Made by a program: the position numbers and the translations under genes | Shown here: positions 3,552-51,157 of the stretch, in pieces | Position numbering within the stretch: the first letter of the stretch is position 1 | How the letters are laid out: the number at the start of each line of letters is the position of its first letter | Assembly: GCA_022571865.1 (NCBI GenBank) | Contig: JACZXA010000002.1 | Span: 1 to 61,270 of the forward strand | Direction: 5' to 3' | Source: Pseudomonadota bacterium | GTDB lineage: Bacteria; Pseudomonadota; Gammaproteobacteria; Pseudomonadales; Azotimanducaceae | Length of the DNA stretch: 61,270 bases | Notes under the pieces: generated by a model | The model's input: the letters and a program-made list of their open reading frames with translations, nothing else | Databases searched by the model: none | Told to the model about the DNA's origin: nothing

Positions 3552-6191
3552 GTGCGCACACGCCTGTCAACGACCGACGCACCACACGTCCTGGAAGTAG
3601 GCGGTAAAGCCGCATCGTTAATCCGCCTTAATCAGGGCGGCTTCCGGGTTCCCGAAGGAAACGTGCTGACGACCGCGTTTTTTGCGCCCTGGATCTGGCA
3701 GATCGAGTCCAGCGAGTTGTGGCGCACGATCATCGCGATGGTTACCACCAGTCGCACACGCGTTCCAAATCCTGACGAACGCGAACATCTTGCGCACGCT
3801 TGTGAAGAGATCAAACAGTTCGCGGCCAATTTGTCGTTTGATACCGAGCAGCGGGCCGTCCTCGAGGAGATCCGAACCGAACTCGACAATGGAAAATTCG
3901 CCGTACGCTCATCTTCGCCCGAGGAAGATCTGGCAGGTGCTTCCTTTGCGGGTATGTACGAAACGGTGTTGAACGTCACGCCGGAGACCCTCGATTCCGC
4001 CGTGCGTACCTGTTTCCGATCCTGTCTCGACGCCCGCGTGCTGCTTTATAAGCGCCAGATGCAATTCGTGAACCTCTCACCAGCCATTGCGGTGGTCATT
4101 CAGTGCCAGCTGGATAGCGCCATTTCCGGCGTTGCGTTCTCTTTGAACCCGCTCACCAACGACTTCGATGAAGTATTGATCAATGCAAGCTGGGGGTTAG
4201 GCGAAGCGCTGGTCTCTGGCGAGATTACGCCCGACACCGTGGTGGTGAACAAGGTCACGGGCACGGTGATCGAGAACCGTCCCGGTGACAAGGGTGGGGA
4301 CGGTCCCACCGAGACCTGTCTGGACGCCGAGCAGATTGACGAGTTGACGGAAACCGTGAAGCGCATCGAAGCGCTCTATGAGGAACCCGTCGATGTGGAA
4401 TGGGCGATCTGCGAAGGCGAGCTTCATGTTCTGCAAGCCCGACCGATTACCGCCTTCATCCCGCTGGCCAAAGAACTGCAGAGTAAGCCCGGCGCGCCAA
4501 GATCCCTGTACATGGATGTCGCGTTAACCGATGGCTTGACAATCAGCGGCCCCATCTCGGCGATCACGCTCGATACCTTCATGATGATTTATCGGCTCAT
4601 GTTCGGCTACATGCTCGGCATTGAAGAAAACAAATTCGATTTTGATCGAGCCGGGTTTCCTTTTCACGGATCTCGCCCCTACATAAATCTCTCGATGTTC
4701 CTGCATCTGATGGGCAGCGGTAAGGCAATCGCCAAACAGGCCGAGTCAACAAACGCTTTAATGGTCGAAATTCTGCTTTCCTGCGATCTGGATCAATATC
4801 GGCCTGCCAAGCCACCTCAGCAGTTCCGAATATTCACGCTGGTGCGATACCTACCACGAGTTCTCTGGCGGCTGCGTACGATATTCAAATGGGTGCTGAA
4901 GCCATTGCGGCGCCAACGTTTCCTGGCCACTTATACCGAAGTGCTGGCGGAGTTCGAAACATGGGTCAGCCAGCCAATCGATTATTCCCAATCACTCGGC
5001 GAGGCGGTAAGAGACTGGAACGTGCAGGTAGGCCTCACCTCCATGATGTCGACCGGACCCGCGCTCATCTATTTCATCTATATGGGGACAGAGCGAATCA
5101 AGCGCTTGATCGATGAGAAATCTCCCGAACAGGTCGCGCTCGCCGACGCAATCTGCCGGGGCTATCCGGACGATCAGGTGGTACAGATGGGTATGAAGAT
5201 ATTCGATCTCTCGACTTTATTGCCCGCGAGCGAGTTTGCCGATCTCGATGTGCTGCTGGCAAAAATCAACAGCCGGGAATTGCCTGAAACGTTCATGGCG
5301 ACATGGGATGCGTTCATCAAGGAATTCGGTTGCCGTGGACCTCTTGAAATGGAACTTGCCAATCCAGGCTACGGCGAAGATCCCATGTTGGCCCTGCGAC
5401 AGATTGCGATGATCGCCACCTCTTCCGGGAGTTTTAATCCCCACGATATGCAGCGGAAACTCGTCGCAGAGCGTGAAAGCGCGTACCAGAAACTCTTGAC
5501 GATGTTACCCGGGGGCAAGCGTAAACGTTTGTCTCATGCTTACCAGAACATCTTGCGCTATTCGGGATCACGGGAGTTGATCAAACACCACATGATGCAG
5601 GTGAACGAGCGGATACGAAAACGTCTATTACGCTCGGCGGACGACTTTATAGCGGCCGGTCGCCTGGACTCGAGGGAACAGATTTTTGATTTGACCATGG
5701 CCGACATCGACCGCGGGACGCAGGATGAGGATTTTGATCTCCGCGCCAGCGCGGAGGCTCGGGGCGCACCTTATCGGAAGTTGAAAGCACAGGTTCGCCA
5801 CTTCCCGATGGCTATCGATTCGCGCGGCCGGATCCTGCGTCCGGAGCGCAAAAACAAAGATGGGGTGTTAACGGGAACAGGCGTCTCGCCGGGAGTCGTA
5901 CGCGGACCTGTCAAAGTGCTGAACGACCCATTCGAGAAGGATGTTCTGGCCGGCGACATACTGGTTGCCGTTACCACGGATCCGGGATGGACACCTCTTT
6001 TCATCAATGCTGCCGCGGTGTTACTCGAGATCGGCGGTGAGTTGCAGCACGGTGCGCTGGTGGCACGCGAATACGGAAAGCCCTGCGTGGTGGGCATATC
6101 CGACATCACTACGCTTCTTCACGACGGCCAGACGGTGGAAGTGGACGGCAATGCCGGAACGGTACGCGTCGTTGAGACCGCGGACGTTTAG
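3552..6191 (+). CDS. PEP-utilising phosphotransferase, rifampicin phosphotransferase / PEP synthase-like
   Basis: This 879-residue protein has a PPDK_N ATP-grasp domain at about 15-305, including VGGKAASLIRL, the VRSSSPEEDLAGASFAG arm with Arg119, and a closing QARPI. A helical middle region of unknown specificity follows. The C-terminal swivelling PEP-utiliser domain has GTGVSPGVVRGPV, then GGELQHGALVAREYG with the phospho-carrier His at 833. No PEP/pyruvate-binding barrel follows. That three-part layout and the length fit rifampicin phosphotransferase-type enzymes better than PEP synthase or pyruvate phosphate dikinase. Such enzymes use ATP to phosphorylate a small molecule, releasing AMP and phosphate. 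The start is GTG with AGGGAG upstream. The substrate cannot be read from the sequence. Confidence 0.8.
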   Translation: MRTRLSTTDAPHVLEVGGKAASLIRLNQGGFRVPEGNVLTTAFFAPWIWQIESSELWRTIIAMVTTSRTRVPNPDEREHLAHACEEIKQFAANLSFDTEQRAVLEEIRTELDNGKFAVRSSSPEEDLAGASFAGMYETVLNVTPETLDSAVRTCFRSCLDARVLLYKRQMQFVNLSPAIAVVIQCQLDSAISGVAFSLNPLTNDFDEVLINASWGLGEALVSGEITPDTVVVNKVTGTVIENRPGDKGGDGPTETCLDAEQIDELTETVKRIEALYEEPVDVEWAICEGELHVLQARPITAFIPLAKELQSKPGAPRSLYMDVALTDGLTISGPISAITLDTFMMIYRLMFGYMLGIEENKFDFDRAGFPFHGSRPYINLSMFLHLMGSGKAIAKQAESTNALMVEILLSCDLDQYRPAKPPQQFRIFTLVRYLPRVLWRLRTIFKWVLKPLRRQRFLATYTEVLAEFETWVSQPIDYSQSLGEAVRDWNVQVGLTSMMSTGPALIYFIYMGTERIKRLIDEKSPEQVALADAICRGYPDDQVVQMGMKIFDLSTLLPASEFADLDVLLAKINSRELPETFMATWDAFIKEFGCRGPLEMELANPGYGEDPMLALRQIAMIATSSGSFNPHDMQRKLVAERESAYQKLLTMLPGGKRKRLSHAYQNILRYSGSRELIKHHMMQVNERIRKRLLRSADDFIAAGRLDSREQIFDLTMADIDRGTQDEDFDLRASAEARGAPYRKLKAQVRHFPMAIDSRGRILRPERKNKDGVLTGTGVSPGVVRGPVKVLNDPFEKDVLAGDILVAVTTDPGWTPLFINAAAVLLEIGGELQHGALVAREYGKPCVVGISDITTLLHDGQTVEVDGNAGTVRVVETADV

Positions 6192-14045: not shown

Positions 14046-14359
14046 CTAGCCCGGATATTGCAGGGATGTTGCAAGAGCACGCAGAATTTTGGGTGAGAGA
14101 TCGTGGTCGTCATGACGCCTCGTGACCGAAAACGTAGCCGTAGCGACGGAAGCGCGGACCCGTTTGCGCTTGCGCAAACAGGTCCGCGTTCGCATAGCGC
14201 ACGCGCTGAACATCTCACGGCTTGGCGGCCGCGAGATCCAGCCAAAAACTGCACAGGCGCATCAACGACACTTCGAACCTATTCGAAATATAGAAATTTT
14301 CACATAATTTCAAAATGTTAACCATCATATGCGCCGTACTCGTGCAACATCCGGGCTAG
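14046..14359. mobile_element. MITE-like element, copy 1 (314 bp)
   Basis: Terminal inverted repeats CTAGCCCGGATATTGCA (14046-14062) and TGCAACATCCGGGCTAG (14343-14359) match at 16 of 17 positions. The body is clearly related to the element at 50909-51157. Shared blocks include GTGAGAGATCGTGGTCGTCA, GTAGCCGTAGC, CTTGGCGGCC, TTCGAAC-TATTCGAA and AAAATGTTAACCATCATATG. Copy 1 has an 11 bp extra stretch near the left end and an extra segment of about 60 bp holding a hairpin. No transposase is encoded. CTAG at both outer edges could be part of the repeat or a target duplication. The rest of the gap 13939-14410 shows nothing else. Confidence 0.75.
14153..14188. repeat. Large hairpin inside element copy 1
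   Basis: The 17 nt arm CGCGGACCCGTTTGCGC (14153-14169) pairs with 14172-14188 at 16 of 17 positions around a TT loop. The second element copy lacks it, having a short unrelated stretch at that point. It therefore looks like a later palindromic insertion, or a sequence lost from the other copy. Confidence 0.6.
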
Positions 14360-19934: not shown

Positions 19935-20472
19935 GACGACCCCCTGGATCAAACGTGAGCCCGCAATCCTACACCACTCTTGGGTGTGACATCACCGAAG
20001 ACGATGACTCATGGCAACGCCTGGTCGATCTGTTGCTCCGACCCGTAAGGCTGGCGCCAAGAGGTTTTGAATACTCCCTGGCATGTGCGACAACCCCAGG
20101 AGAAGCCCATGGGACATCTCGAAAAACAATGACGATGTGGCGGCAGCGACCCGGAGGGTCTGTTACCGAGCTCGGGTTCGCGCCAATCGCGGAATTCTGC
20201 AAAGCTCATCCGAATACCGGGCAAGTACTAGCCCGGATTGTTCAGGAGCAGTCCAGGCTAGAGCGCATCGATGCGCAGTCGGGGGACGCTGCCACTGATA
20301 TCGACTGTTGGACTAGCAGAGACCCGGATACCGGGTCGGGTGTGATCGCAATCACAGAACGGCTGTCCCATCCCGCTATTAAGCCTGCCTGTGTGAAAGA
20401 CCTGAGACACAAGTAGCTGAATAATATCGCTAAAAAACGCAGTATCGACCGCTCGCTACATCAGACAGATCG
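19935..20472. other. Gap without a convincing gene; holds a possible terminal-repeat remnant
   Basis: Open frames exist on both strands, including one of 153 codons at 19955-20416 on the plus strand. None has a recognisable domain, and the composition differs between overlapping frames. I treat the stretch as non-coding or decayed. At 20228-20261 lies a short piece bounded by ends like those of the MITE-like elements. Confidence 0.4.
20228..20261. repeat. Possible collapsed remnant of the MITE-like element
   Basis: CTAGCCCGGATT at 20228 and TCCAGGCTAG at 20252-20261 match the two ends of the elements at 14046 and 50909 (the right end of copy 2 reads TTCAGGCTAG). Only 12 bp lie between them. 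It could be the scar of an internal deletion, or chance, given the short length. Confidence 0.3.
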
Positions 20473-50908: not shown

Positions 50909-51157
50909 CTAGCCCGGATATTGCACGAGGACGCAGAGTTTTGGGTGAGAGATCGTGGTCGTCATGACGGCTCGTGACCGAAAGCGTAGCCGTAGCTACG
51001 GTTGAGAGAACATGGCGGCTTGGCGGCCACGAGATCCAGCCAAAAATTGTGGAGGCGCCTCGATGATACTTCGAACATATTCGAAATATAGAAAATTTAT
51101 AATAATTTCAAAATGTTAACCATCATATGCGCCGTACTCGTGCAATATTCAGGCTAG
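50909..51157. mobile_element. MITE-like element, copy 2 (249 bp)
   Basis: The left end CTAGCCCGGATATTGCA is identical to copy 1. The right end TGCAATATTCAGGCTAG differs from the perfect inverted complement at two positions. Beyond 17 bp the left end continues CGAGGACG and the right end, in reverse, CGAGTACG, so the terminal repeats are about 25 bp with mismatches. The body matches copy 1 block by block but lacks its large hairpin and its 11 bp left insertion. No transposase is encoded. The rest of the gap 50698-51397 holds nothing I can support. Confidence 0.75.

Follow-up and report, generated by a model that had tools for sequence, protein, structure and literature searches.

IS1380-family ISs such as ISPosp7, ISMaq4 and ISPa33, whose transposases belong to PF13701, are about 1.6 kb long, carry a transposase gene, and have ends of the CC(C/T)GGAT or CCTGAAT type flanked by a CTAG duplication. 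The two MITEs described here have the same kind of ends and the same duplication; however, only the ends are alike, as the MITEs are 241 and 306 bp long and have no transposase gene. According to the accessible part of PMC10045372, IS1380 and piggyBac are distant relatives, both with 4-bp duplications and CC..GG termini, and the same pairing appears in the corresponding part of PMC5718144; for piggyBac, footprint-free excision, insertion at TTAA and hairpin intermediates are described in the portion available of PMC7351741. In sequence, our elements resemble this eukaryotic and only distantly related system in the CC..GG termini and the 4-bp duplication; in piggyBac, as far as those sources describe it, the duplicated tetramer is TTAA, which also flanks one of the IS1380 relatives below. 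Among small elements, the Chunjie MITE of Geobacter uraniireducens is similar in size, copy number and length variation, by its description in the available text of a review of prokaryotic MITEs (PMC10969869). In the same available text, the BOX, RUP and SPRITE elements of Streptococcus pneumoniae are different small elements found together or nested, and such arrangements also occur here; unlike in those clusters as described there, neighbouring elements here have one CTAG in common, and the facing end is often GTAA. IS1380 is unnamed in what is available of the main text of that review, and no description of a MITE with IS1380 ends was found in the accessible literature searched, a scope with most subscription papers outside it. 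The family presented here is a new representative of a known element type. A MITE family with ends of IS1380 is described here from a genome with a second, more abundant one whose ends are similar (174 of them), and its copies, taken one by one, provide evidence that the 4-bp YTAR duplication known from IS1380 extends to non-autonomous elements.

The window, that is the whole stretch of 61,270 nucleotides that was analysed, is contig C86 of a 4.56-Mb assembly of 315 contigs with a completeness rating of 93%. The sequence-only reading had placed two related MITE-like elements with CTAG-ended 17-bp terminal inverted repeats (TIRs) at 14046-14359 and 50909-51157, and we found both at these positions. 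With the outer CTAG set apart as a target duplication, on the sequence and the end analysis given below, copy 1 is an element of 306 bp on the plus strand (14050..14355) between duplications at 14046..14049 and 14356..14359, and copy 2 is an element of 241 bp, also on the plus strand (50913..51153), between duplications at 50909..50912 and 51154..51157; all four CTAG tetramers are without strand. In copy 1, the left 13-bp TIR, CCCGGATATTGCA, lies at 14050..14062 (plus strand) and is followed at 14063..14073 (plus) by an 11-bp near-repeat of the left end, GGGATGTTGCA, which is found in some copies of the family only; a central palindrome is located at 14154..14187 (plus), and the right 13-bp TIR at 14343..14355 (minus) is identical to the left one at 12 of 13 positions. 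The TIRs of copy 2, at 50913..50925 (plus) and 51141..51153 (minus), agree at 11 of 13. The resemblance between the copies was as claimed: their first 17 bases are the same (CTAGCCCGGATATTGCA), the right ends read inward correspond to the left ends at 16/17 bases in copy 1 and 15/17 in copy 2, and the internal blocks are collinear in the alignment, with copy 2 missing 54 aligned columns (169-222) that represent most of the central palindrome of copy 1 and its right neighbour. None of the window ORFs of at least 100 aa overlaps either copy, in agreement with the proposed absence of an encoded transposase; at 306 and 241 bp, both are short elements without a transposase gene, as is usual for MITEs. 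Elsewhere in the window, a tiny relic at 20228-20261, CCCGGATTGTTCAGGAGCAGTCCAGG between two CTAG tetramers, lies in the listed ORF 19955-20416 and resembles two collapsed MITE ends.

The proposal of a non-autonomous mobile family was backed by copy number and common boundaries. With copy 1 as the DNA query, 40 places were found in its own genome, copies 1 and 2 among them, from a search that scored 40 of its 71 first-look candidates; the best place other than copy 1 itself had 93% identity over 312 bp (E 9e-133). A TIR pattern search of the same genome gave 6 places beyond these 40. Of 17 additional TIR sites with one mismatch, 9 were copies or remnants, which brings the family to 55 places, a count that takes in TIR sites with at most one mismatch. 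Eleven of the 55 end at contig ends (4 left parts and 7 right parts); since up to four left/right pairs may be halves of single copies, the copies or remnants in the genome number no fewer than 51. When up to 2 mismatches are allowed, the TIR 13-mer has 211 occurrences in the genome, versus 35 of the reversed pattern, and this, together with the 40 places found with copy 1, indicates that the window pair is not due to chance. The genome-wide search suggested earlier thus returned many further copies, the ends of which align; pairwise identity has a median of 89% and reaches 97% at the highest (616 pairs with at least 200 aligned bases). Four copies (L019, L026, L075 and L084) have in common a flank of approximately GGT(T/C)AAAACATATCAG right at the element end, which could represent a preferred target or else the terminus of some larger repeat.

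The sequence-only reading had seen no parent element in the window, and indeed none of the five matches that the IS1380 transposase profile PF13701 gave in the genome lies on contig C86. Three of these were above the cut-off (C154, 76 bits; C305, 62 bits; C64, 39 bits) and two below it (C221, 26 bits; C47, 18 bits). Each of the three begins downstream of a CTAG followed directly by CCCGGATATTTCAC, and all three are 5' pieces of an IS1380-family IS that end at contig ends; an IS whose ends are nearly the same, which had been named as a thing to look for, is thus present in the same genome. Over 295 bp, the pieces on C154 and C64 share 99.3% identity, and they are located at different sites; this near-identity suggests that the IS has moved recently. 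The piece on C305 has an apparent frameshift. The 87-aa piece P0001 scored 76 bits with PF13701 and 55 bits with the NCBIfam model transpos_IS1380, and its position under the whole-protein cut-off of the latter (180 bits) is expected of a fragment. The match on C221 is a C-terminal piece with a poor right-end match, GGATACGGGCTAG, about 220 bp past the stop codon; neither a well-fitting right end of the IS nor a full-length IS1380 parent was found in this genome.

The ends of the MITE and of the same-genome IS1380 follow CCCGGATATT(G/T)CAC with one mismatch in 13 positions, a T in the IS where the MITE has G, and the 4-bp duplication is that of IS1380 as well. The likeness extends over 14 to 20 terminal bases, CTAG included, and no more. 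Derivation of the MITE from the IS by internal deletion was rejected, as the interior is unlike both the 5' piece and two intact relatives beyond about 20 bases; an interior that is not derived from the IS is still compatible with mobilisation in trans.

Further IS1380 relatives were examined at the level of the order, in 12 stretches, from which six ORFs passed the motif filters (L127, L128, L129, L132, L138 and L135) and six stretches were dropped (L130, L131, L133, L134, L136 and L137). A TIR pair with a duplication was present in four of the six. L128 has the exact MITE 13-mer at both ends and is flanked by CTAG on both sides, L127 is flanked by TTAA on both sides, and L129 by CTAA on both sides, the latter in a pair ranked second behind an unrelated inverted repeat. 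In L138, also with CTAG on both sides, the ends are 1084 bp apart and the element is probably internally shortened, to judge by this distance. No convincing TIR pair with a duplication was found in L132 and L135. Four plasmid elements were included, L123 and L126 by way of the filter and L124 and L125 by their annotated coordinates: L126 has CTAG followed by CCCGGATATTTCAC at both ends, L123 (ISPosp7) has a less perfect end pair, and L124 (ISMaq4) and L125 (ISPa33) have CCCGGATTTCTCATGA ends, the last three with CTAG on both sides.

The common boundaries, the 4-bp duplication, the same-genome IS with near-identical ends and the relatives elsewhere all argue for copies 1 and 2 being members of one MITE family with IS1380-type ends that depends on an IS1380 transposase for its mobilisation in trans, a reading from sequence to which we assign a probability of roughly 0.92. 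The transposase, acting in trans, would recognise CCCGGATATT(G/T)CAC at both ends of the element, excise it at a YTAR-like tetramer, in most cases CTAG, and insert it at another of these 4-bp sites, which would thereby be duplicated. The mover was presumably the IS of the own genome rather than a lost relative, and the chemistry may proceed through hairpins as in piggyBac, in which case a palindromic CTAG or TTAA would allow clean repair. The interior of the MITE would then be an unrelated, strongly folding sequence carried between IS-like ends. Mobilisation by a CTAG-targeting IS from outside the IS1380 family could be imagined, as the same genome has other CTAG-flanked repeats with unlike ends (CAGTCTGTCGGACT and GAGTCTGCGCGGTAGAAAA); however, it is improbable given the match of the MITE ends to IS1380 ends over the same 14 to 20 bases with their CTAG, and the CC termini and 4-bp duplications reported for IS1380 in the accessible part of PMC10045372.

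In REP and BIME sequences, a RAYT transposase is associated with short palindromes. The elements might be structured RNA or extragenic regulatory palindromes (REP- or ERIC-like) that are retained for their function, and their fold is indeed very stable (z -8.9, with 0 of 100 shuffles equally stable). In 2 of 10 copies, both partners of one pair in the central palindrome have changed; however, 3 of 10 copies have this same pair broken, two-sided change is limited to 2 of the 99 pairs predicted, and the covariation term, at +2.51, is unfavourable. There was also no Rfam match in the window at the gathering threshold. With no Rfam match and little covariation, the structured-RNA reading was rejected. 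Retention of the elements as palindromes with a regulatory function finds some encouragement in their placement, since the stop codon of an ORF of at least 100 aa coincides exactly with 9 of the 35 left ends and 3 of the 32 right ends, the control being 20 of 174 CTAG readings elsewhere in the stretches examined. This excess is weak, with p 0.015 for left ends only, 0.079 for both ends versus CTAG elsewhere, and 0.022 for both ends versus pooled CTAG, CTAA and TTAG. The tetramer includes TAG or TAA, so its duplication preserves the stop codon. ORFs of at least 150 aa cover 14 of 22 rejoined sites versus 79% of random positions, which by this crude measure indicates little avoidance of coding sequence. 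As boundaries, duplications and IS-like ends are features of transposons, we consider function as RNA or as regulatory palindromes very unlikely, and retain the reading as an IS1380-mobilised MITE family.

It had been left undecided whether the outer CTAG was a target duplication or part of the repeat, and the end analysis settled this for duplication. Of 46 places taken in, a fixed rule identified both ends in 27, and 7 of these were left out as one end was GTAA or otherwise not CC-like. Among the 20 copies kept, the outer tetramers were CTAG on both sides in 11, CTAA on both sides in 2, TTAG on both sides in 1, and unequal in 6, so that the TIRs are flanked by the same tetramer in 14/20. The identical non-CTAG pairs in direct orientation (3/20) exceeded the expectation from shuffling of the right tetramers (permutation p 0.009), whereas inverted non-CTAG pairs (1/20, among the 6 unequal ones) were at chance level (p 0.51). 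Since non-CTAG tetramers recur as direct and not as inverted repeats, the outer CTAG is a 4-bp target duplication, and the proposed 17-bp repeat consists of a 13-bp TIR, which stood, and a CTAG that does not belong to it; the elements proper are therefore 14050-14355 and 50913-51153. A 17-bp terminal repeat that includes CTAG, with no target duplication at all, is very unlikely, for the 11 copies with CTAG on both sides are compatible with either reading of this palindromic tetramer, but the direct non-CTAG flanks, and the TTAA and CTAA on both sides of one related IS each, are not what it predicts. The 6 unequal flanks count against our best explanation and require decay or recombination. CTAG is scarce in the 61-kb window, with 39 observed versus 232 expected by base composition and 61 by trinucleotides, and its presence at most ends thus represents a strong target preference.

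We then compared the window copies with sister genomes. The region of copy 2 is colinear with contig C531 of the sister species G002 once the element and one CTAG are removed, in a diverged alignment with a few small gaps where the tetramer at the site is CCAA and not CTAG. This near-empty orthologous site supports, and does not prove, the insertion of copy 2. At the locus of copy 1, a larger change in both sister genomes leaves no readable empty site. The MITE matched neither of the 2 other genomes of the genus and none of the 292 other genomes of the order (query copy L083), the order search being a shallow one, with at most 2 candidates scored per listed genome and just 2 places recovered in the own genome. 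When the species collection was scanned for 20-mers, five records came up (two Gemmatimonadota, Herbidospora, Terriglobia and an alphaproteobacterium), in which the similarity ends at 19-28 bp, so these matches are probably due to chance. In sister genome G001, a 24-bp match led to a relic on contig C160 at about 5775-5798 (L247), CCCGGATATTGCACGAGGACACCGGG between CTAG and CTAA; with the same end as the MITE, it is the sole trace of the family seen in G001.

The same genome contains a second, more abundant MITE family (L190-L219 and others) with ends CC(T/C)GGATTATTCATGAA, which resemble those of ISPa33 and ISMaq4. Its GGATTATTCATGAA core has 174 matches in the genome at up to 1 mismatch, versus 0 for the reversed pattern. 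Two more CTAG-flanked repeats, one of about 166 bp with CAGTCTGTCGGACT ends and one with GAGTCTGCGCGGTAGAAAA ends, are represented by L139-L147, L151, L153, L154, L163, L169, L176, L177 and L188.

In the family of copies 1 and 2 as well as in the GGATTATTCATGAA family, some ends read CTAG-GTAA-GGAT instead of CTAG-CC(C/T)-GGAT; such GTAA-type ends lie at about 1501-1511 in most of L169-L189. The sequence TAGGTAAGGAT occurs 21 times in the genome versus 0 for the reversed control, and by eye 15 of these contexts abut the end of another element (one of them over a few extra bases), while 4 are unclear or non-adjacent and 2 chance-like. When adjacency was scored by rule in the stretches examined, GTAA ends of the GGATTATTCATGAA family abutted another element in 15/19 cases versus 8/57 for CC ends (Fisher 4e-7), and those of the family of copies 1 and 2 in 5/6 versus 1/57 (5e-6), proportions that are biased, as some of the stretches had been selected with a composite query or through the very GTAA pattern; at least three CC ends scored as adjacent (L001, L188 and L197) seem to have been scored so in error. 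Two explanations were tried and found unsupported: GTAA as a third, self-transposing type of TIR, as it is rare at unique flanks, and an origin of GTAA from palindrome repair, as partners without palindromic ends show it too. The swap recurs in two families and with several different partners, which would point to a processing or repair step. It is conceivable, although on balance doubtful, that the terminal CC(C/T) is exchanged for GTAA when a CTAG-targeting MITE directly adjoins a CTAG-flanked element, by a specific and undescribed step of IS1380-type transposition. The GTAA junctions, if genuine, would be a readable trace of how elements come to lie in tandem.
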